From Streptococcaceae bacterium (lineage in GTDB: Bacteria; Bacillota; Bacilli; Lactobacillales; Streptococcaceae), in the NCBI GenBank assembly GCA_031285775.1, contig JAITVN010000022.1:1-34686 (forward strand): a DNA stretch of 34,686 nt, given 5' to 3'. How positions within the stretch are numbered: the stretch's first letter is position 1; the number at the start of each line of letters is the position of its first letter. A model generated the notes under the pieces. The model saw only the letters and a list, made by a program, of their open reading frames with translations, had not been told where the DNA came from and did not search any database. Below are positions 9,760 through 33,889 of the stretch, piece by piece. The translations under genes and the position numbers were made by a program.

Positions 9760-12459
9760 ATGGCAACAACAAAAGCAGTAAAGAAGGAACTTACCGCTGA
9801 AGAAAAAGCTGCATTAGTAAAAAAAGCAGAGACTTATACTGGCAAGCTTGTAGACAAAGCAATCCTCGCAGTCAATGACTTCAAATTCTATGCGCAGGAA
9901 GACGTTGATAAAATCGTTGCAGCAATGGCACTGGCCGCATCTGAGAATTCACTGATGCTTGCACACGAGGCACACGATGAGACAGGCCGCGGTGTGGTTG
10001 AGGACAAAGACACGAAGAACCGCTTCGCCTCTGAGTCAGTTTACAATGCCATCAAGCATGACAAGACTGTCGGGGTTATCGAAGAAGATGCGGTAAAAGG
10101 TTCTGTGAAAATTGCTGAGCCGCTGGGTGTATTGGCAGGTATCGTGCCTACTACCAACCCGACTTCAACGACGATTTTCAAATCACTTCTATCTGCAAAA
10201 ACGCGTAACTCTATTGTGTTCGCATTTCATCCGCAGGCTCAGAAATCTTCAGCACATGCTGCAAAAATTGTTTATGACGCCGCTGTTGAAGCTGGTGCAC
10301 CAAAGGATTTCATCCAGTGGATTGAGACGCCAAGTCTTCAAAATACAACTGCCCTGATTCAGAATCCGAAAATCGCGTCAATCATCGCGACTGGTGGACC
10401 CGGCATGGTGAATGCAGCGTTGAGTTCAGGAAATCCTTCGCTCGGTGTTGGTGCAGGAAATGGTGCGGTCTACATTGACTACACAGCTGATACGGAACGT
10501 GCAGTTGAAGATCTGCTTATGTCAAAACGTTTCGACAATGGGATGATTTGTGCAACTGAAAATTCAGCCGTTATTGCAACGGAAGTTTATGACGAAGTAA
10601 TGCAGAAGCTCCAGGAGCAAGGCGCTTATCTGGTGCCTAAGAAAGATTATAAGAAGATTGAAGACTTCGTCTTTGTGAAGCGTGAAGATGGTTATGGTGT
10701 GACTGGCCCTGTTGCTGGCCGTTCCGGCCGTTGGATTGCCGAGCAGGCTGGGGTTAAAGTACCAGATGACAAAGATGTCCTGCTCTTCGAATGCGAAAAG
10801 AAGAACATCGGCGAGCCGCTCAGCTCAGAAAAACTCAGCCCGCTCTTGTCTGTTTATCGCTCAGATGACCGCGAGCAGGCCATTGATATTGTGCTTGACC
10901 TCTTGAACTACCAAGGCGCAGGTCATAATGCCGCCATTCAAATCGGCGCTCAGGATGATCCATTTGTGAAAGAATACGGTATTGCAGTGAATGCGTCACG
11001 TATCTTGGTCAACCAGCCTGATGCCATCGGTGGTGTCGGCGACTTCTATTCTGATGCAATGCGTCCATCATTGACGCTGGGAACTGGATCTTGGGGGAAA
11101 AATTCGCTCTCGCACAACCTGAGCACATATGATCTTTTGAATATTAAAACAGTGGCTAAGCGTCGTAATCGCCCACAATGGGTTCGCTTACCGAAAGAAA
11201 TCTACTACGAGAAAAACTCAATCAGCTACCTGCAGGAATTGCCGCATGTTCACCGTGCTTTCTTGGTTGCGGATCCTGGAATGGTTCAATTCGGCTTTGT
11301 GGACAAAGTGCTCGAGCAGCTGCAATTACGTCCTAAACAAGTTCAGGTTAGTATCTACTCAAGCGTTAAGCCGGATCCAACACTCAGTCAGGCGATCGAA
11401 ATTGCACGTCAGATGGATGAATTCAAGCCTGATACTGTCGTAATGGTCGGCGGCGGATCCGCTCTTGATGCTGGAAAAATCGGCCGTTTGATTTACGAGT
11501 ATGCTTCACGCGGAGAAGTTGATTTGGCCGACGACAAGGCGCTCAAATACCTCTTTGAAGAATTTGCTCAGAAGTTTATGGACATCCGTAAGCGTATCAT
11601 CAAGTTCTACCACCCGCACAAGACACAGATGGTAGCGATTCCTACAACATCTGGTACAGGTTCAGAAGTGACGCCATTTGCCGTTATCACAGATGATGAA
11701 ACTCACGTGAAGTACCCATTAGCCGACTACCAGCTGACTCCTCAGGTGGCCATTGTTGACCCAGAGTTCGTCATGACAGTACCTAAAAAGACTGTGTCAT
11801 GGTCAGGTATTGATGCCCTGTCACATGCGCTCGAATCTTATGTCTCTGTCATGTCTTCAGATTACACCAAGCCAATCTCGCTTCAGGCCATCAAGCTGAT
11901 TTTCAACAACCTGACAACCTCTTACCACTACGATCCAAGTCATCCGACAAAAGAAGGACAAATCGCACGCGAAAACATGCATAATGCGGCTACCTTGGCA
12001 GGTATGGCTTTCGCCAATGCTTTCTTAGGGATTAATCACTCATTGGCTCATAAAACTGGCGGCGAGTTCGGATTGCCTCACGGCTTGGCCATCGCCATTG
12101 CAATGCCTCATGTGATCAAATTTAATGCCGTCACCGGGAATGTGAAACGCACACCTTATCCACGTTACGAAGTTTATCGTGCACAGGAAGACTACGCGGA
12201 AATCTCACGTTTCATGGGCTTTGCCAACATCAATGACTCTGATGAGCAAGCAGTAACGAATCTAATCGCAGAAATCAAGAAGTTGACGGACAGCATTGAC
12301 ATTGACATCACGCTCAGCGGCAACGGCGTCAAGAAAGAGCACCTCGTACGTGAACTTGACCGCTTAGCTGATCTGGTTTACGATGATCAATGCACACCAG
12401 CTAACCCGCGCCAGCCAAAGATTGAAGAAATCAAGCAGCTACTGATGGATCAATTATAA
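9760..12459 (+). CDS. adhE: Bifunctional acetaldehyde-CoA/alcohol dehydrogenase AdhE
   Basis: An 899-residue enzyme that reduces acetyl-CoA to acetaldehyde and then to ethanol, regenerating two NAD. The N-terminal aldehyde dehydrogenase half has its catalytic cysteine near residue 264 (FDNGMICATENS). The C-terminal half is an iron-dependent alcohol dehydrogenase with GGGSALDAGK and the histidine-rich motif NHSLAHKTGG. Start 9760 is chosen because AAGGAGG (9748-9754) lies in front of it; an in-frame ATG at 9742 lies upstream of that Shine-Dalgarno. Size matches lactococcal and streptococcal AdhE. Codon use suggests high expression. It is controlled by the upstream Rex operator. A GATG/GTTA repeat starts directly after the stop codon. 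Confidence 0.97.
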   Translation: MATTKAVKKELTAEEKAALVKKAETYTGKLVDKAILAVNDFKFYAQEDVDKIVAAMALAASENSLMLAHEAHDETGRGVVEDKDTKNRFASESVYNAIKHDKTVGVIEEDAVKGSVKIAEPLGVLAGIVPTTNPTSTTIFKSLLSAKTRNSIVFAFHPQAQKSSAHAAKIVYDAAVEAGAPKDFIQWIETPSLQNTTALIQNPKIASIIATGGPGMVNAALSSGNPSLGVGAGNGAVYIDYTADTERAVEDLLMSKRFDNGMICATENSAVIATEVYDEVMQKLQEQGAYLVPKKDYKKIEDFVFVKREDGYGVTGPVAGRSGRWIAEQAGVKVPDDKDVLLFECEKKNIGEPLSSEKLSPLLSVYRSDDREQAIDIVLDLLNYQGAGHNAAIQIGAQDDPFVKEYGIAVNASRILVNQPDAIGGVGDFYSDAMRPSLTLGTGSWGKNSLSHNLSTYDLLNIKTVAKRRNRPQWVRLPKEIYYEKNSISYLQELPHVHRAFLVADPGMVQFGFVDKVLEQLQLRPKQVQVSIYSSVKPDPTLSQAIEIARQMDEFKPDTVVMVGGGSALDAGKIGRLIYEYASRGEVDLADDKALKYLFEEFAQKFMDIRKRIIKFYHPHKTQMVAIPTTSGTGSEVTPFAVITDDETHVKYPLADYQLTPQVAIVDPEFVMTVPKKTVSWSGIDALSHALESYVSVMSSDYTKPISLQAIKLIFNNLTTSYHYDPSHPTKEGQIARENMHNAATLAGMAFANAFLGINHSLAHKTGGEFGLPHGLAIAIAMPHVIKFNAVTGNVKRTPYPRYEVYRAQEDYAEISRFMGFANINDSDEQAVTNLIAEIKKLTDSIDIDITLSGNGVKKEHLVRELDRLADLVYDDQCTPANPRQPKIEEIKQLLMDQL

Positions 12460-12575
12460 GATGTGAGGCGCGCCCGTAAAGGGGCGTAGAAATTAAGGAA
12501 ATCATAGGTTCTGTGCGCAGCACAGGTTCTAGGATTTATCTAATTTCCTAGCCCCTGGCGCACCGAACTCAATTA
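12460..12575 (+). repeat. GATG/GTTA modular repeat, locus A, core unit
   Basis: A 116-nt element with the family ends GATGTGAGGCGCGCCC and GGCGCACCGAACTCAATTA. Pairing segments are GCGCGCC with GGCGCAC, GGGGC with GCCCC, AGGAAAT with ATTTCCT, and an inner hairpin CTGTGC/GCACAG flanked by the conserved GTT/GTT loop. It starts directly at the adhE stop codon (TAA|GATG) and has no extra module. The adhE 3' end (CAATTATAA) resembles the element's own right edge (CAATTATAA), leaving a direct repeat across the junctions. Confidence 0.8.
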
Positions 12576-12578
12576 TAA

Positions 12579-12604
12579 GATGAGAGGCGCGCCCAGCTCA
12601 ATTA
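12579..12604 (+). repeat. Internally deleted GATG/GTTA repeat remnant
   Basis: GATGAGAGGCGCGCCC is joined directly to AGCTCAATTA: both ends of the element are present but everything between has been lost. It lies in tandem behind the locus A unit. Confidence 0.75.
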
Positions 12605-14299: not shown

Positions 14300-14304
14300 A
14301 ATAA

Positions 14305-14588
14305 GATGTGAAACACGCCCGTTTTAAAGCGTGCCATTCGACTTAGCGCTTTAGCGCTATAGTGAGAATGGACAGCGGCGGCCGTAGGCCGTAGACAATT
14401 TCAGAAGTTTTAGCTTCTAGAAATTGCTAGGGCTTTAGCCCTGTGTAGAAATTTACCACCGCAAGCAAGGGAAAGCGATCTCTAAGCGCTGAAGCGCTTA
14501 GAACCTGATTAGGGAGCTTGAGCTTCTGCCGTAAGGCAGGTTCTCGAGTCATCTGATTTCCTAGCTTCTGGCGTGTTGAACTCAGTTG
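14305..14588 (+). repeat. GATG/GTTA modular repeat, locus B, expanded form
   Basis: The longest single unit (about 284 nt). It fills the space between the permease stop (14299) and the ATPase ribosome binding site. The ends are CACGCC and GGCGTG in place of GCGCGCC/GGCGCGC, a compensatory change. Extra hairpins sit near the 5' end: CCATTC..GAATGG with AGCGC/GCGCT, GGCCG/GGCCG-like, CAATTTC..GAAATTG and AGGGC/GCCCT. Then come GTAGAAATTTA, one two-hairpin module (14456-14511), the CTGCC/GGCAG hairpin and the terminal GAACTCAGTT. Confidence 0.75.
14456..14511 (+). repeat. Two-hairpin insert module within locus B
   Basis: It begins after GAAATTTA and ends with TTA. It carries the conserved GGGAAAGCGA and the hairpin CTCT-A-AGCGC..GCGCT-T-AGA. 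Related modules lie at 26956-27007, 27058-27113 and 33758-33813. Confidence 0.7.
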
Positions 14589-15360: not shown

Positions 15361-18300
15361 TTACGGTTTCTTAACTTTTCGAGAGATTAGAAGAGCAAGT
15401 ACCAAAATTGCCCCGCCAGCTAATATGATTGATAAGTCGTTGTGGTCACTGGTTCTTGGAAGAATTGGTTTATTCGGTTTATTCGGATTGTCAGGATTAT
15501 TCGGCTTATTTGGCTTATTTGGTTTATTCGGAATATTCGGGATTTCTGGTGTATGACTATTTGTAATTACAATATTTCCAGGATTGTCATTATTGACCGA
15601 AATGGTGTAGCCTTTAACGCTTCCGACTTCCTTAACTGTATATTTGATTGTTTTTCCAGCAGATTTTTCTGGCAGATCTTGCCAGGTCTTGGTCCATTTA
15701 TTCCCGTTATCAAGTGTTACAGCTTCTCCAAGGGCTTTATCATCTGCATAGAGCTGAACTTTGATGCTTGCAGGGCGTAAGGCATCTTGGTTGTTTTTAT
15801 CATTCCAGGCCTTAGTCACACTAATGCTGGTTTTTCCTGGCGTGTAGCTATTGGTAATGTTGTAGCCGTCGTAGCTGCTGCTGTAATCAGCCACTTGATT
15901 CTCTTTGACGGTGTAGAGAATTTTTTGTCCCTGATTGAATTTCGGCAGATCTGTAAAGCTATATTTCCAGTTGTCTGCTGCACTGACTTCTTTAGAATCA
16001 ATGATTTTTCCGTCGGCAAGCAAGTTGACAGTGATTTTATTTGGGCGCTTTCCGTCTTGATTGTCAGCATCTTTCCAGAGCTTCTGTCCTTCGACTTGCG
16101 TTTTCTCAGGTTCATGCGTGTTGCTGATGATGATATTTCCCGGACTGCTTTCACTCTGGGTGACGGTGTATCCGCTCGGCGCCTCAACCTCTTTGACAGT
16201 ATAAATGATCTTTTTGCCTTTGGACATCTCGTCTAAATTTTGCCAGTTTTTTGACCAATTGTTTGCTGCGTTTAGGTCGACAGGAGAACCAAGCGCTTTG
16301 CCGTCCGCGTAAAGCTGTACTAAAATACCTGTAGGACGCAAGCCGTCTTGATTGTCTTTGTCATTCCAGGCTTTGGTCACGCTGATGCTTGTCTTGCCCG
16401 GCGTATAGCTATTGGTAATGTTATAGCCATCGTAGCTGGTTGAGTAATCTGTGATCTTATCTTCTTTGACGCTGTAGAGGATTTCTTTTCCGTGACTAAA
16501 TTTGGGCAGATTTGTAAAGGCGTATTTCCAGTTATCAGAAGCGCTGACTTCTTTAGAATCAATGATTTCACCGTCAGCAAGCAGATTGACAGTGATTTTA
16601 TCAGGACGTTTGCCATCTTGATTGTCAGCATCCTTCCAAATCTTTTCGCCTTCGACTTGAGTTGTTTCTGGTTCATGATTGTTGCTCAGAATGACATTTC
16701 CAGGATTATTTGCACTCTGTGTGCTGGTATAGCCGCTTGGCGTTTCAACTTCTTTGACTGTATAGTTTATGGCTTGACCGTTGGACATCTTTTCTAAGTC
16801 TGCCCAATTATGTTTCCAGTTATTTGCCTCATTCAGCTCAACTTGTTCACCTTTGGCAACGCCGTTTGCATAAAGCTGGACGAAGATGCTTGCAGGGCGA
16901 AGACCGTCCTGGTCATCTTTATCGTTCCAGGCTTTGGTCACGCTGATGTTGGTTTTCTCAGTTGTGTAGCTGTTTGTGATGCTGTGACCGTTGTAGTTTG
17001 TATTGTAATCACCAATGCGATCTTCCACGACGGTGTAATTGATCAGCTCTCCATTCGCATATTTCGGCAAATTGTCAAAGCTGTATTTCCAGCTCTCATT
17101 TTCGCTTACCTCAACTGTGTCAACGACTTTTCCGTTCCCGAATAGATAAACTTTGATGCTGGCTGGTCGCTTTCCGTCCTGATTATCATTATCATCCCAA
17201 GATTTTTCACCTTCAACTTTTGTCACTTCAGGTTCATGGCTATTGATAATGACATTTCCAGAACTACTTACATTTTGCGTTGAGGTATAGCCGCTTGGCG
17301 TGCTGACTTCTTTGACAGTGTATACAATTTTCTGACCATTGGACATCTCGTCCAAATCTTGCCAGTTGTAGGTCCAATTGTTTGTCGCATTCAGTTCAAC
17401 TGGCGCGCCGATTTCTTTTCCGTTCGCGTAAAGCTGAACTTTGACGTTTGTAGGACGCTTTCCATCCTGATCGTTTTTATCGTTCCAGGATTTCGTCACG
17501 TTGAAATTGGTTTTGTTCGGCGTGTAGCTGTTTACAATGTTATTGCCTTCATAAGTTGTGCTGTAGTCATCAATACGATCTTCAGTTACTGTGTAATTGA
17601 TCGCCTGTCCATTTTCATTTTTGGGTAAATTAGTGAACGTATATTTCCAGTTGTCACTCGCTTTTACATCAATTGTGTCGACAATTTTTCCATTGGCCAA
17701 TAGATTAACGCGGATGCTTTCTGGGCGTTTGCCGTCCTGGTTGTTTTTATCATCCCAAATCTTTTCTCCTGAAATTTGTGTAGTTTCTGGCGTATGGCGG
17801 TTCGAGAGGATAATGTTTCCCAGATTATTATCATTCGTTGTGGAGACGTAGCCTTCGGGAACTTCAACCTCCATCACGCTATAAATAATCTTCTGTCCGC
17901 CGTCTTTCTTCTCGGGCAAATTTTCCCAGACATGATTCCAGTTATTTGCTGGATTTAATGTAACAGGAGCGCCGTAGGCTTGCCCGTCAGCAAAGAGCTG
18001 TACCTGAAGGCTGACTGGACGAATGCCATCCTGATCATTCTGGTCATCCCAGGATTTTGTTGCACAGATACTTGTTTTTCCAGGAGTGTGCGTATTTGTT
18101 ATCGTGCTGCCGTTGTAGGTGGTCGTGTATTCTGGAACAGAATCCTCGGTCACTGTGTAATCAATAAGTGTTCCATCGTCGTATTTCGGCAGATTGTCAA
18201 AACTGTAAGTCCAGCTGTTGTCTGAGCCGGCAGAAACCGCTATTGTCTGAATGACTTTACCATTGGCCAGCAGATTGACATTGATTGAGTCTGGACGTTT

Positions 18301-20388
18301 TCCGTCTGAATTATTATTGTCGTTCCAGATTTTCTGCCCTTTGACATTGGTCACTTCTGGTGTGTGAACATTTGTGATGACCACGTTTCCAGGATTGCTG
18401 TCGTCAACTGTAGTTGTGTAGCCAGGAATCGTGCTGCTTTCTTTCACAGTGTAGCTAATTGTCTGGCCTGCGGATTTTTCAGGCAAATCATTCCAGACGG
18501 TGTGCCAATTGTTGCCGGCGTTCAGCTCAACTGGATCGCCTTTGGGCTGTCCATCTGCGTAAAGTTGGACGAGAATGCTGGTAGGACGAATGCCGTCTTG
18601 GTTGTATTTGTCGTCCCAGGATTTTGTGACATCCAGACTGGTACTGCCAGGCGTGAGTTTATTAGTGATATTGTAGCCATCGTAAATGACGCTATATTCA
18701 GAGACAGAATCTTCAGTAATCGTGTAGCTGATCAGCTGGCCGTTTTCATCATTTTTAGGTAAGTCTGTGAATGCGTAAGCCCAATTGTCATTAGCTGAAA
18801 CAGTTTTTGAATCCTTAAAGACACCGTTAGCCAGCAGTTTGACTGTGATTGTATCTGGACGCTTTCCATCCTGATTGTCATTGTCATCCCAAATCTTCTT
18901 GCCGCTAATGTCTATTTTGGGTGACTCCAGCTTTTTATCGACAATTGTTTTCTGCACGGCCATATCTGTTCCGAAATCCTCAGGTGAGATTTTTATCTCT
19001 TCAATAGGTGCATAACCGTCAGGTGCCTGGGTCTCTTTGAGTGTGTAATTGTCTTTCAGCAAGCCGGAAAGTTCAGCATCGCCGTTGCCGCCAGTGGTAA
19101 TAGTGCCGAACAAAGCACCGGTTGAGTCGCGCGTCACAGTGAATTCCGCCCCAACCAGAGGATTACCAGCCTCATCCGTTTTATGAATTTTTATACTGTA
19201 ATTATAACCTTCACCTCCGCCGCCGGCTCTCTGATAAATGATGTCAGAAACGCGTTCATCCACGAGAGTATTATTGGCTCTCAGCTGGGACCAGTTTCTA
19301 AAAAGCTCGCCATTAGCCAGTGCATGATTAATATTTGTTTTGTATTCGATCCGATAACCTTCGCCGTTGATATTGCCGAAATCAACCTCAAAGCTGCGTC
19401 CGTCAGCCGCAATCTTAACAGGAAATTGTGAAGTGACATCTGACACATTTGTCAACTCTTGAAGTCCAGTCGACTCATTGATTTTCCAAGTTCCTTTGGA
19501 AATAACAAAACTTGAAGGATCGTAATAAATACCGTCAGAGCGTAAACTATCCCAGACCACTGCATCTTGATAAGTGGCGCCTGAAGCATTGACACGGAGC
19601 ACAAATTGAGCCTTACTTCCCTCATCGTTGAGGAAATAGCCGTATTTCATGAACTTTTCATCAGTACTGTCGCCGAACTTTCCATAATTCACATCTTGAA
19701 CAGGCTTTTCAGTCCCATTTTCAGTGAAAGTAATGGGAACTTTTCCATTTTCTTTAACTTTTTCAGTATCAATACGTACAGTCAGGTGCAAAGATCCTTT
19801 TACATCCGAATGCGTTTCGGCATAATCAGTATAAGTCATGGTCAGCGTCTTGGTTGCTGGATCAATGACCGCTTTGGCTATGACATTTCCATTCGCATCT
19901 TTTACATCAAATGTCTCTCCTTTGAGGAACTTGATGTTGTCAGAAAGTTTGATGGTCGTCTGATCCCCAGCTTTAACCGTATTGTTGGGCAGAGTAAAGT
20001 CGAAATTCATCTGAAAATCGGTGAATTGATTGACATCATTAATCGGATTCCCGTTTGAATCGGAAAGTGTAGATTTTGTAATGATGTTACCGATCTCAGC
20101 ACTTGCAATCGCGATTAATGCCGGTGCGCGCGGCTGATTTTCAGTATTTGTTGTAGTTTGCGGCAGCAGCGAATCCGAGCCGGGAGAGTTGGCTGTTTCC
20201 GCACTCTGACTTGTCGTCACAGTAGTTTCAGTCTGCTGCACCTCATCTTCCGAGTCAGAGATAGTGCTTGATTCTATTGGAGACTGGTTCGTGTTCGTTG
20301 TGGTGGAATAGGCAACATTACTCATTGTTGAGGTTGCCACAGAGAATAAAAGCACAAACAGTCCAAAAATAACTCTTAATTTCTTCAT
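15361..20388 (-). CDS. LPXTG-type cell-wall-anchored adhesin with twelve Cna_B domains
   Basis: A 1675-residue surface protein. Signal peptide about 1-28, a Ser/Thr-rich linker to about 88, two adhesin-like beta domains (about 95-385) resembling the collagen-binding/SdrC-like class, a SpaA-type prealbumin domain (about 395-485; KIHKTDEAGNPLVGAEF and LKETQAPDGY), then twelve Cna_B domains (about 492-1612). A proline/asparagine spacer leads to LPRTS, a hydrophobic helix and RKVKKP. Each Cna_B repeat has the KxW..NQDGxRP start, YTVxE and a terminal ITN/VIxN, consistent with Lys-Asn isopeptide bonds and a catalytic Glu. ATG 20388 is chosen because AAGGAG lies 11 nt upstream; a GTG at 20400 abuts it. 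Probable role: extended stalk and adhesion to host, plant or matrix ligand; the ligand is unknown. Confidence 0.92.
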   Translation of the reverse strand: MKKLRVIFGLFVLLFSVATSTMSNVAYSTTTNTNQSPIESSTISDSEDEVQQTETTVTTSQSAETANSPGSDSLLPQTTTNTENQPRAPALIAIASAEIGNIITKSTLSDSNGNPINDVNQFTDFQMNFDFTLPNNTVKAGDQTTIKLSDNIKFLKGETFDVKDANGNVIAKAVIDPATKTLTMTYTDYAETHSDVKGSLHLTVRIDTEKVKENGKVPITFTENGTEKPVQDVNYGKFGDSTDEKFMKYGYFLNDEGSKAQFVLRVNASGATYQDAVVWDSLRSDGIYYDPSSFVISKGTWKINESTGLQELTNVSDVTSQFPVKIAADGRSFEVDFGNINGEGYRIEYKTNINHALANGELFRNWSQLRANNTLVDERVSDIIYQRAGGGGEGYNYSIKIHKTDEAGNPLVGAEFTVTRDSTGALFGTITTGGNGDAELSGLLKDNYTLKETQAPDGYAPIEEIKISPEDFGTDMAVQKTIVDKKLESPKIDISGKKIWDDNDNQDGKRPDTITVKLLANGVFKDSKTVSANDNWAYAFTDLPKNDENGQLISYTITEDSVSEYSVIYDGYNITNKLTPGSTSLDVTKSWDDKYNQDGIRPTSILVQLYADGQPKGDPVELNAGNNWHTVWNDLPEKSAGQTISYTVKESSTIPGYTTTVDDSNPGNVVITNVHTPEVTNVKGQKIWNDNNNSDGKRPDSINVNLLANGKVIQTIAVSAGSDNSWTYSFDNLPKYDDGTLIDYTVTEDSVPEYTTTYNGSTITNTHTPGKTSICATKSWDDQNDQDGIRPVSLQVQLFADGQAYGAPVTLNPANNWNHVWENLPEKKDGGQKIIYSVMEVEVPEGYVSTTNDNNLGNIILSNRHTPETTQISGEKIWDDKNNQDGKRPESIRVNLLANGKIVDTIDVKASDNWKYTFTNLPKNENGQAINYTVTEDRIDDYSTTYEGNNIVNSYTPNKTNFNVTKSWNDKNDQDGKRPTNVKVQLYANGKEIGAPVELNATNNWTYNWQDLDEMSNGQKIVYTVKEVSTPSGYTSTQNVSSSGNVIINSHEPEVTKVEGEKSWDDNDNQDGKRPASIKVYLFGNGKVVDTVEVSENESWKYSFDNLPKYANGELINYTVVEDRIGDYNTNYNGHSITNSYTTEKTNISVTKAWNDKDDQDGLRPASIFVQLYANGVAKGEQVELNEANNWKHNWADLEKMSNGQAINYTVKEVETPSGYTSTQSANNPGNVILSNNHEPETTQVEGEKIWKDADNQDGKRPDKITVNLLADGEIIDSKEVSASDNWKYAFTNLPKFSHGKEILYSVKEDKITDYSTSYDGYNITNSYTPGKTSISVTKAWNDKDNQDGLRPTGILVQLYADGKALGSPVDLNAANNWSKNWQNLDEMSKGKKIIYTVKEVEAPSGYTVTQSESSPGNIIISNTHEPEKTQVEGQKLWKDADNQDGKRPNKITVNLLADGKIIDSKEVSAADNWKYSFTDLPKFNQGQKILYTVKENQVADYSSSYDGYNITNSYTPGKTSISVTKAWNDKNNQDALRPASIKVQLYADDKALGEAVTLDNGNKWTKTWQDLPEKSAGKTIKYTVKEVGSVKGYTISVNNDNPGNIVITNSHTPEIPNIPNKPNKPNKPNNPDNPNKPNKPILPRTSDHNDLSIILAGGAILVLALLISRKVKKP
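15550..18915 (-). repeat. Tandem array encoding six A/B pairs of Cna_B domains
   Basis: Twelve domains of about 90 (A) and 97 (B) residues alternate strictly, giving a repeat unit of about 560 bp. A domains start xGxKxWxDxxNQDGKRP and contain LLANG; B domains start VTKxWxDxxxQDGxRP, contain QLYADG/QLYANG and end xPGNxxIxN. The copies nearest the wall anchor (domains 7-12) are most alike, suggesting recent duplication there. Confidence 0.9.
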
Positions 20389-20548
20389 GTTTTTACACAC
20401 TCCTTATAAAAACTTTATTGATTACTATAGCGTTAGATCATTGCGTATAAATACTATTTAACACAATGTGTCCAATTATATAGTAGCACAAATAAAGATA
20501 AAATGTGCAAATATGCTTAAATTTTGCGAGAATTATCATCTTTCTGCC

Positions 20549-26793: not shown

Positions 26794-26798
26794 ACCAA

Positions 26799-26912
26799 GA
26801 TGTGAGGCGCGCCCGTAAAGAGGCGTAGAAATTTAGGAAATTGTGGTTCTGCCCAACGGGCAGGTTCACAATTTATCTAATTTCCTAGCCTCTGGCGCGC
26901 TGAACTCAGTTA
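26799..26912 (+). repeat. GATG/GTTA modular repeat, locus C, unit 1 (core form)
   Basis: A 114-nt simple unit. Stems: GCGCGCC/GGCGCGC, GAGGC/GCCTC, AGGAAATTGTG/CACAATTT..ATTTCCT, and CTGCCC-AAC-GGGCAG bounded by GTT on both sides. It is preceded by ACCAA and followed by AACCAA, then unit 2. Confidence 0.85.
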
Positions 26913-26955
26913 AACCAAGATGTGAGGCGCGCCCGTAAAGAGGCGTAGAAATTTA

Positions 26956-27007
26956 CCCCCGAGGGGGAAAGCGACCTCTAAGTGCTGAAGCACTAAGAGT
27001 CTGCTTA
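26956..27007 (+). repeat. Two-hairpin insert module 1 in locus C unit 2
   Basis: 52 nt: CCCCCGAGGGGG hairpin, AAAGCGAC, hairpin CTCT-A-AGTGC..GCACT-A-AGAG, then TCTGCTTA. Inserted after GAAATTTA and ending TTA. Confidence 0.8.
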
Positions 27008-27057
27008 GGAAATTGTGGTTCTGCCCAACGGGCAGGTTCACAATTTATCTAATTTCC

Positions 27058-27113
27058 CCCCCTAAGCAAGGGAAAGCGACCCGTAAACGGCTGAAGCCGC
27101 AACGGTCTGCTTA
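27058..27113 (+). repeat. Two-hairpin insert module 2 in locus C unit 2
   Basis: 56 nt: C-rich/GGG hairpin, AAAGCGAC, hairpin CCGT..ACGGC-TGAA-GCCG..ACGG, then TCTGCTTA. Both arms of the second stem differ from module 1 in a compensatory way. Confidence 0.8.
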
Positions 27114-27147
27114 CTAGCCTCTGGCGCGCTGAACTCAGTTAAACCAA

Positions 27148-27183
27148 GATATGAAGCGTCCCCGCAAAGAGGCGCAGAAAGTG
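27148..27183 (+). repeat. Truncated GATG/GTTA repeat, locus C, unit 3
   Basis: GATATGAAGCGTCCCC..GAGGCGCAGAAA is a diverged left half that ends about 48 nt before rlmH, with no right end. Confidence 0.65.
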
Positions 27184-27215
27184 ACCGACAGACAGGCTAA
27201 ACTTAACTGTTTTTG

Positions 27216-30928: not shown

Positions 30929-31423
30929 TTGAAAACTTTCTCCAAAATGATAATGCTGCTTTATTTCATCTTTTTGATTTGGCTGATTGACCTGAAGTTG
31001 TCCTTTCCTATTTTGGACTTTTTGGACACAAGGCACGTGACAAGCCTGAATCTGACTCCTTTTCAGAATACAGGCGGTACGTTTGAAATCGCGATGAATG
31101 TCATTGCTTTTCTGCCTTTGGGTGGACTTTTGGCTGCGGCGAGCAGGAAATGGCGTTTTGACCAGCAGCTCTTGGCGGTTCTGCTTACGAGCTTGTGTCT
31201 GGAAGGGCTTCAGTACGCACTGGCGATTGGTGCGGCCGATATTACGGATGTTATAAATAATACATTTGGCGGATTGCTGGGGATCGGAATCTTCCTGTTG
31301 ATAAAGAAGCTTTTCGGAGAGAAAGCGGCTTCTGTTTTGGCGATTCTTGTCAGTATTGCAATAGTCGTCCTTGGGGTTTTAATCAGTCAGACCGACCTTC
31401 TAGGTATTAGGATGATCTTGTAA
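30929..31423 (+). CDS. VanZ-like membrane protein
   Basis: A 164-residue membrane protein with about five helices. The VanZ-like family motifs are present: NVIAFLPLGGLLAA and, later, LEGLQYALAIGAADITDVINNTFGG. Members include VanZ, linked to teicoplanin resistance, but most are of unknown function. A TTG start (30929) with GGAAGGGA upstream is preferred; an ATG at 30947 is possible. It follows the exonuclease by 1 nt and is followed 1 nt after its stop by the locus D repeat. Confidence 0.85.
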   Translation: MKTFSKMIMLLYFIFLIWLIDLKLSFPILDFLDTRHVTSLNLTPFQNTGGTFEIAMNVIAFLPLGGLLAAASRKWRFDQQLLAVLLTSLCLEGLQYALAIGAADITDVINNTFGGLLGIGIFLLIKKLFGEKAASVLAILVSIAIVVLGVLISQTDLLGIRMIL

Positions 31424-31424
31424 A

Positions 31425-31536
31425 GATGTGAAGCGCGCCCAGTTTGAAGCGTAGAAATTTAGGGAGTTGCGGGTCTGCCTGGGAAAGAACCGCAATTCAT
31501 CTAATTTCATAGCTTTAGGTGCGCCGAACTCGGATT
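31425..31536 (+). repeat. GATG/GTTA modular repeat, locus D (core form)
   Basis: A 112-nt unit starting directly after the VanZ-like stop codon. The ends GCGCGCC and GGTGCGC still pair with one G-T. AAGC/GCTT replaces GAGGC/GCCTC. The central hairpin (GTTGCGG..CCGCAAT) has changed loop content. It ends GAACTCGGATTA. Confidence 0.75.
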
Positions 31537-32755: not shown

Positions 32756-33709
32756 ATGGAAGCAATGCCTCCTATTCTGGAAACAGCACCAAAGAAGCGA
32801 ATGGGTCAATTGTTCAAAGAGAAACTGAAACATAATGCTTCGCTGTACTTGCTGCTGGCACCAGCCACAATTTTGCTGATATTATTTGCCTATGTGCCGA
32901 TGTATGGGCTTTTAATGGCTTTCAAGGATTATTCACCTGCAATTGGGGTTTGGGATAGTCCTTGGGTTGGCTTCAAATGGTTCATGCAGTATTTCAACTC
33001 TTACCAGTTTTGGCCAACAATTCTGAATACGCTGAAAATTGCGCTTTACAGTATTGCTTTCGGCTTCACACTTCCGATTGCGCTGGCCTTGATTTGTAAT
33101 CAGATTCGTGTGCAGGCTTTCAAAAAGTTCTTTCAGGTCACGACTTATCTGCCACATTTTATTTCAACCATGGTCATGTGCGGCATGATTCTGCTCTTCC
33201 TCTCGCCTTCGTCTGGGTTGATTGCCAATGTTCTGCATATCTTCGGCGCCAAGATGCCTGATGTGATTGGAAATCCGCATGCCTTTGCCAGTGTTTATGT
33301 CTGGTCGGATGTCTGGCAGCATGTCGGCTGGAATTCGATCATCTATTTGGCGGCCTTGTCGGCGATTGATCCGACTTACTATGAGGCAGCTACGATGGAC
33401 GGCGCTTCGCGCTGGCAGCAGATGATTAAGATTGATTTGCCGCTTTTAATTCCGACGATGATGATTATGCTGATTTTGACGGTGGGGCAATTGCTTAATA
33501 TTGGCTTTGAAAAAGTTTTGCTGCTGCAGAATCCGCTGAATGCGTCTGGTTCTGAGATCATTTCCACTTATGTCTATAAAATCGGCTTGCAATCCTTCCA
33601 GTACTCTTATTCGACAGCGATTAACCTTTTCCAGACCGTGATAAATCTGGTGGTGCTCTTCACAGTGAATTTTCTTTCACGTAGATTGACGAAAACGGGG
33701 TTATTCTAA
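32756..33709 (+). CDS. CUT1 carbohydrate ABC transporter permease, LplB/YteP type
   Basis: A 317-residue inner-membrane permease with six helices. The EAA loop EAATMDGASRWQQMIKIDLP contacts the ATPase. The N-terminal LLLAPATILLILFAYVPMYGLLMAFKDY is characteristic of the LplB group, which imports complex oligosaccharides (for example pectin-, xylan- or host-derived). Start 32756 has GGAG 7 nt upstream; the earlier in-frame ATG (32738) has none. It is the first gene of an operon under cre and LacI-like control, with the partner permease next. Confidence 0.93.
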   Translation: MEAMPPILETAPKKRMGQLFKEKLKHNASLYLLLAPATILLILFAYVPMYGLLMAFKDYSPAIGVWDSPWVGFKWFMQYFNSYQFWPTILNTLKIALYSIAFGFTLPIALALICNQIRVQAFKKFFQVTTYLPHFISTMVMCGMILLFLSPSSGLIANVLHIFGAKMPDVIGNPHAFASVYVWSDVWQHVGWNSIIYLAALSAIDPTYYEAATMDGASRWQQMIKIDLPLLIPTMMIMLILTVGQLLNIGFEKVLLLQNPLNASGSEIISTYVYKIGLQSFQYSYSTAINLFQTVINLVVLFTVNFLSRRLTKTGLF

Positions 33710-33889
33710 GATGTGAGGTGCGCCCGTTTAGGGGCGTATTAGGGGCGTAGAAATTTACCCCACAGCGGTGGGGAAAGCGACCTCTAATCGCTAAAGCGAT
33801 AAGAGTCTGCTTAGGGAATCTAGGTTCTGCCTTTAGGCAGGTTCTAGAATCATCTACTATCATTGCTTCTGGCGCGCCGAACTCAGTTA
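33710..33889 (+). repeat. GATG/GTTA modular repeat, locus E, with one inserted module
   Basis: A 180-nt unit starting right at the permease stop (TAA|GATG) and ending 1-2 nt before the next gene's GAGG ribosome binding site. It contains a tandem 11-nt duplication (TTAGGGGCGTA twice, 33728-33749) and one insert module. The ends GTGCGCC and GGCGCGC pair with one T-G. The central hairpin is CTAGGTT-CTGCC..GGCAG-GTTCTAG. Confidence 0.85.
33758..33813 (+). repeat. Two-hairpin insert module within locus E
   Basis: CCCC..GGGG hairpin, AAAGCGAC, hairpin CTCT-A-ATCGCT..AGCGAT-A-AGAG, TCTGCTTA. It occupies the same position as module 1 of locus C unit 2. Confidence 0.8.

Follow-up and report, generated by a model that had tools for sequence, protein, structure and literature searches.

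A folding repeat, here called copy B, lies between a permease gene and an ATP-binding cassette (ABC) ATPase gene of a Streptococcaceae bacterium (assembly GCA_031285775.1, contig JAITVN010000022.1). The whole stretch analysed, positions 1 to 34,686 of this contig, is referred to as the window. A sequence-only reading of the window had claimed that the arms of this repeat and its sister copies truly pair, and the locus raises the question of what such a repeat is and what keeps its arms complementary. Shuffling and tree simulations strongly supported that the arms pair and that the pairing is maintained, in the host genome (2.26 Mb in 119 contigs, ~90% complete) as well as across genera. We consider, with moderate confidence, that copy B belongs to a non-autonomous mobile element that folds, has spread among Streptococcaceae and diversified there, and also occurs in a few other Lactobacillales.

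Structure of the repeat

Ninety-six stretches were fetched for copy extraction, and 155 end-to-end pairs were obtained, 145 of which were 100–400 nt long. The loci examined, with 1.8-kb flanks, sum to 401 kb of the 2.26-Mb genome, and genes were called as long open frames without curated annotation. Copy lengths clustered at 114–118, 163–173, 215–230, 277–286, and 325–338 nt, stepping by ~55 nt, and thus the basic unit gains modules of ~55 nt.

The basic unit of 114–118 nt consists of the 5' end AAGATGTGA, a five-helix hairpin, and the 3' end GAACTCARTT. After AAGATGTGA come the P1 arm (RRYGCGCC), a CGNNN bulge, P2, an internal loop GTA/CTA, P3, an internal loop TAGG/ATCT, and P4, followed by a loop GTT/GTT, P5, a small apical loop, the return arms, and GAACTCARTT. 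In 24 units, a type-II centre (AAAACTGG...GGAAGTTTT) takes the place of P4/P5. The two ends and the TAGG/ATCT loop are the constant parts, also across genera, and the GTT/GTT and GTA/CTA loops are kept in nearly all type-I units.

The 55-nt module was found in 65 distinct copies genome-wide. Longer copies, including copy B, carry a further module of ~115 nt (M4), which was extracted 18 times and showed both-side changes at 7 of 36 pairs. The inserted modules fold and covary. As read from the sequences, they sit in internal loops, namely at TA^GG, in the 3' arm of the P3-P2 loop, and at TT^ATCT, and the large module sits in the 5' arm between P2 and P3. A Streptococcus genome (locus L128, 2170–2400) contains tandem ~55-nt modules (CACCGAACTTCTGTGGTCACTTTCG...) within a truncated unit, resembling a boxB array.

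Copy B was located where the sequence-only reading had placed it and is composed as follows.

14303–14587, + strand: composite copy B, a basic unit with inserted modules of ~115 nt and ~55 nt; permease-gene stop upstream, ribosome-binding site of the ABC ATPase gene downstream
14303–14311, + strand: constant 5' end AAGATGTGA; gene stop TGA 3 nt upstream, left flank AAT
14312–14319, + strand: outer stem P1, 5' arm AACACGCC
14325–14330, + strand: stem P2, 5' arm TAAAGC
14333–14447, + strand: large inserted module M4, four hairpins
14456–14511, + strand: 55-nt inserted module (a hairpin and the GAAAGCGA hairpin CTGMTTA) in the TA^GG internal loop
14514–14550, + strand: central hairpin P4/P5 with loops CTT and GTT
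14564–14569, + strand: stem P2, 3' arm GCTTCT
14570–14577, + strand: outer stem P1, 3' arm GGCGTGTT
14578–14587, + strand: constant 3' end GAACTCAGTT

Copy B alone gave a folding z of −6.6, and the foot of its P2 stem is weak, with two mismatches (A.C and T.T).

Covariation of the paired arms

For the pairing test, 57 type-I units were aligned by sequence only. Standard pairs made up 96.7% of the cells, compared to a shuffled mean of 81.9%, and none of 500 shuffles reached the observed value. Both-side changes were observed at 29 of 33 pairs, one-sided intermediates were few, and doubly changed cells numbered 277 versus 75 in the shuffles. When partners were slid by 1–3 columns, 31–47% of the cells paired and 9–35 were doubly changed. 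RNAalifold independently returned the same fold with an extra pair at columns 23/102 (UA 35, AU 20, GC 1). Because the copies share ancestry, independent column evolution was simulated along a FastTree tree; in this simplified stand-in for R-scape, to which invariant pairs add nothing, 15 of 40 pairs lay above all 300 simulations (~0.13 expected). The covariation is stronger than chance would give.

A covariance model trained on the 57 type-I units of the host genome was used to compare repeats across genera. Both-side changes occurred at 31 of 32 pairs, with 415 doubly changed cells, and 94.1% of the cells paired compared to 59.2% after shuffling and 36–49% with slid partners, in an alignment that leans towards the model because it was fitted to it. 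In the relatives, the ends and the TAGG/ATCT loop persist, little of the stem sequence is shared, and nearly every base of the stems differs.

The remaining copies in the window are listed below.

12458–12574, + strand: copy A, basic unit; its leading AA completes the TAA stop of the upstream gene (12457–12459)
12577–12603, + strand: collapsed remnant, hairpin deleted and both constant ends left (AAGATGAGAGGCGCGCC-CAGCTCAATT)
26797–26911, + strand: copy C1, basic unit
26917–27140, + strand: copy C2, in tandem to C1 via a 5-nt spacer AAACC, with two 55-nt modules
27146–27186, + strand: truncated third copy of the C array, 5' end only
31423–31535, + strand: copy D, decayed basic unit upstream of a plsX-like gene
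33708–33888, + strand: copy E, with one 55-nt module; its leading AA completes a TAA stop codon

Most of the stems first described in these copies were recovered: the outer stem AACACGCC/GGCGTGTT at B, the second stem as GGGGC/GCCCC at A, GAGGC/GCCTC at C, and AAGC/GCTT at B and D, and the central hairpin as CTGTGC/GCACAG at A versus CTGCCC/GGGCAG at C. The outer stem of copy D had been counted as compensated, but AGCGCGCC/GGTGCGCC contains a one-sided G.T change and an A.C mismatch. The outer stem of copy A, GGCGCGCC/GGCGCACC, holds a C.A mismatch. The GTT loops, described as constant, vary within the window (CTT on the 5' side of B, GGT/AAC in D), and genome-wide, 55 of 57 type-I units retain the first pair of this loop. 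The proposal that these loops form a binding site is not supported as first put, since GTT is confined to the type-I centre of the host genome, is missing from type-II units, and is not conserved across genera.

In addition to the repeats, the minus strand of the window encodes a 1679-aa surface-type protein with 12 Cna_B domains, Big_8, and SpaA (15361–20400), whose internal repeats account for the large direct-repeat families of the window.

The mismatches carry information on which strand folds. RNA tolerates G.T mismatches, and single-stranded DNA of the + strand does so to some extent; if neither strand mattered, G.T and A.C would be equally common. We counted 80 G.T versus 48 A.C in the host genome (p = 0.006) and 40 versus 11 across genera (p = 6e-5), both ratios coming from model-fitted alignments. 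P1 alone was near parity (43 versus 37). When folded as RNA, the + strand was the better folder in 54 of 57 units. The excess of G.T thus suggests that the + strand is the one that folds, with a modest signal in the host genome.

The near parity in P1, together with the position of its arms as 8-nt inverted repeats close to the ends of the element, would fit a transposase that reads both ends and makes the arms covary without any pairing. However, covariation is just as good in the inner stems P2–P5 and in the stems of the inserted modules, and at the extreme termini, AAGATGTGA and GAACTCARTT do not form an inverted repeat. We regard this explanation as very improbable.

Matched arms might also be produced by mutation, if the arms were kept complementary by quasipalindrome correction (template switching across the hairpin) and by recombination among the copies, without selection on the fold. 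Among the doubly changed Watson-Crick cells, 123 of 295 need two transversions, and many changes therefore cannot have passed through a wobble pair; this, the scarcity of one-sided intermediates, and the lack of a clear G.T preference in P1 would all favour a mutational origin. Collapsed copies, in which the ends are joined at GGCGCGCC and the hairpin is lost (window 12577–12603, L065, L066, L071, L082, and L083), are a sign that a DNA hairpin forms between the GGCGCGCC arms and is skipped in replication, as expected from slippage, and is thus acted upon. On the other hand, internal loops should be lost under such correction, whereas TAGG/ATCT and the ends have stayed the same from genus to genus, the other two loops persist in nearly all type-I units, and G.T outnumbers A.C across genera. 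The original claim of selection for structure thus holds as far as maintained pairing is concerned; with regard to its cause, the conserved loops make hairpin-templated mutation a less likely source, possible but in our judgment quite improbable.

Distribution of the repeat

Searching the host genome for the 5' end with up to 3 mismatches yielded 193 matches (88 + 105), compared to 4 (3 + 1) for the reversed control. The covariance model detected ~143 copies in the host genome, and 23, 14, and 37 copies in three of four genus mates, with none in the fourth. Matches were obtained in 94 of 147 sampled Streptococcaceae, and element-rich genomes of a large genus taken to be Streptococcus (g2) contained 31–68 copies. 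In an order-wide sample, matches were also found in three further families (f2, f3, and f4), and most other genomes had none. One genome, G017, carried 12 copies, several of them as a 120-nt tandem. At locus L238 of the same genome, which belongs to another family of the order, an array of at least 4 tandem 120-nt units shares the fold, has different ends (AAGAGCGTGAG...GATCGCGTTT), and adjoins a gene resembling NAD kinase.

A pattern search with the 3' end gave almost no matches outside the host genome. No copies were detected in viral contigs, plasmids, or phages, where three viral-contig pattern matches failed the model. Rfam scans at gathering and permissive thresholds returned no family for the repeat, with only a tRNA in the window and nothing at the loci of the relatives. 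Literature searches by sequence and by topic found no description of these repeat ends.

Insertion sites and orientation

After arrays were collapsed, 99 sites remained. Of the 61 copies with a same-strand upstream gene, 51 started −25 to +4 nt from its stop codon, and 20 of these 51 formed the stop codon as T|AA. Where the upstream gene lay on the opposite strand, ~20 of 36 copies started 9–20 nt ahead of the start of that gene, next to its Shine-Dalgarno sequence. No comparable docking was seen for the 3' end of the repeat (7 of 44; Fisher p = 2e-12 versus the 5' end). The flanks read AAY| on the left and |AAW on the right. In a flank-shuffling test for target duplication, similarity between the flanks of 66 solitary copies was weak (39% versus 32%), probably due to A-richness.

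Filled and empty versions of the same site were found in relatives. The permease-ATPase junction is an uninterrupted 13 nt in Lactovum miscens (L009), the nearest named relative for the window permease gene (73% identity), and 14 nt in L011, compared to the 285-nt copy B here. By the permease match, the host is a Streptococcaceae species near Lactovum. At Streptococcus rpsO, the filled site TAATC[element]CAGCAA corresponds to the empty site TAATC-CAGCAA, with no target duplication. At the dnaK stop codon, different elements of the R1 type are present in different species and others are empty. The dnaK 3' end in Streptococcus (L178–L207) is a hot spot where unrelated structured repeats dock exactly at the stop, including the present family, a BOX-like repeat (L182/L186), and a type with AAGACAC/AACACACC (L181/L193/L200). 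Unlike units adjoin in tandem, 3–6 nt apart. At L019, the copy at 1704–1817 has near-identical AGCCARCACTAGG in both flanks, an unusually long flank repeat for the family.

Copies show no obvious U-run, and many sit inside operons, which would not favour a role as intrinsic terminators. It is plausible from this placement that they are transcribed as RNA. The folded transcript might accordingly be kept by the host to tune operon mRNAs through 3'-end protection, attenuation, or processing. That copies fill operon gaps between the stop and the Shine-Dalgarno sequence, that the + strand is the better RNA folder and favours G.T over A.C, and that conserved genes such as dnaK have retained orthologous copies would agree with such a role. 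However, copies antisense to both neighbours were nearly as common as sense copies in operons (26 versus 42, p = 0.07), and without a strong orientation bias a function in the sense mRNA is not required. Close relatives lack the copy at the same junction, and tandem arrays, decayed copies, and collapsed copies are common. We therefore consider a host-selected RNA element unlikely.

A possible mode of spread

A folding mobile element is the reading that we prefer, given the copy number and dispersal, the covariation, the strand signal, the docking of the 5' end, the empty junctions in relatives, the lack of a strong orientation bias, and the tandem placement of unlike copies. For such an element, the following mode of spread can be proposed. 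A trans-acting recombinase would recognise the folded single strand, either DNA or RNA, together with the constant ends, and would join the element into AAY^AA-like sites without copying the target. If a TAA stop is the target, the leading AA of the element would restore it. Compensatory changes would build up in propagating lineages because only foldable copies would be copied on, and dead copies would decay. Extra modules are nested in the loops of the element, and whatever it does to the mRNAs in which it lies would be secondary.

Several observations weigh against this proposal. No transposase or integrase bearing these ends was found in the 401 kb examined, and no reverse transcriptase was found in the host genome as assembled (no RVT_1 match; ~90% complete). 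The only Y1 gene, encoding an IS200-type transposase at L108, was rejected as the mobiliser since its flanks are unlike the element. A single clean empty site underlies the lack of target duplication, and several tandem copies share spacers of 4–6 nt that are possibly duplications. Some sites are common to related species and no real-time movement was seen; the mobility may thus be old. We also checked by eye 38 unpaired 5' ends in the 401 kb for a longer, autonomous version; most were truncated or collapsed, and none had a transposase and a matching 3' end.

Comparison with known repeats

By analogy, the repeat appears to work like a structured repeat of the BOX or EFAR type. BOX elements are known in Streptococcus pneumoniae and S. 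suis (RepSU1; PMC3049150), and the S. suis repeat is compared here by its description. The present repeat resembles BOX in being dispersed at ~100 per genome, intergenic, sometimes clustered or in tandem, and predicted to form a stem-loop with optional inner modules; its length steps of ~55 nt come from modules that fold and covary. It differs from BOX in that its modules sit in internal loops on either arm. Identity with pneumococcal BOX was rejected, as the R1 model gave 0 matches up to E = 1 in 20 loci with the BOXA1R motif, whose ends are different (ATACTC...GAGTAT).

EFAR is the name of palindromic repeats of enterococci (De Gregorio et al. 2009, as cited in PMC3733652). The covariance model finds structurally matching repeats in a large-genome genus of family f3 (g20) that is taken to be Enterococcus, which makes a link to EFAR, known here from that citation, plausible. 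If EFAR belongs to the same family, the present repeat would be its Streptococcaceae branch.

Like miniature inverted-repeat transposable elements such as RUP, the repeat is small, non-coding, folding, intergenic, and of high copy number. Unlike them, it lacks terminal inverted repeats of 15–30 bp and has just the 8-bp P1 arms, shows no clear target duplication, and has no partner insertion sequence in the 401 kb examined. It also shares features with repetitive extragenic palindromic (REP) sequences and REPINs mobilised by RAYT, namely hairpins near stop codons and possible movement as a folded single strand without target duplication. Compared to these 20–40 nt repeats, the unit is 3–6 times longer, lacks a GTAG/CGTC tag at the foot of the hairpin, and has no linked RAYT. 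Derivation from a retroelement or group II intron was dismissed, as the RVT_1 search found no reverse transcriptase in the ~90% complete genome.

More tentatively, the repeat may belong to an unrecognised superfamily of folding mobile repeats across Lactobacillales, an idea that we find possible but rather doubtful. The machinery would recognise its members by fold and not by sequence; insertion would leave no target duplication and would occur at stop codons, which the first two bases of the element restore. Repeats of the BOX and EFAR kinds would then be branches of this superfamily or analogues of it.

Catalogues of small folding repeats are usually compiled by sequence for one species at a time, and here one fold joins repeats in many genomes that a pattern search missed. 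Hundreds of natural variants serve as a mutational scan that shows the pairs and loops of importance. Through them it becomes testable what mobilises such elements, and whether selection or hairpin-templated mutation lies behind matched changes in palindromes. The annotation of these genomes is also affected, because many copies supply a stop codon or occupy the space between genes that are transcribed together.
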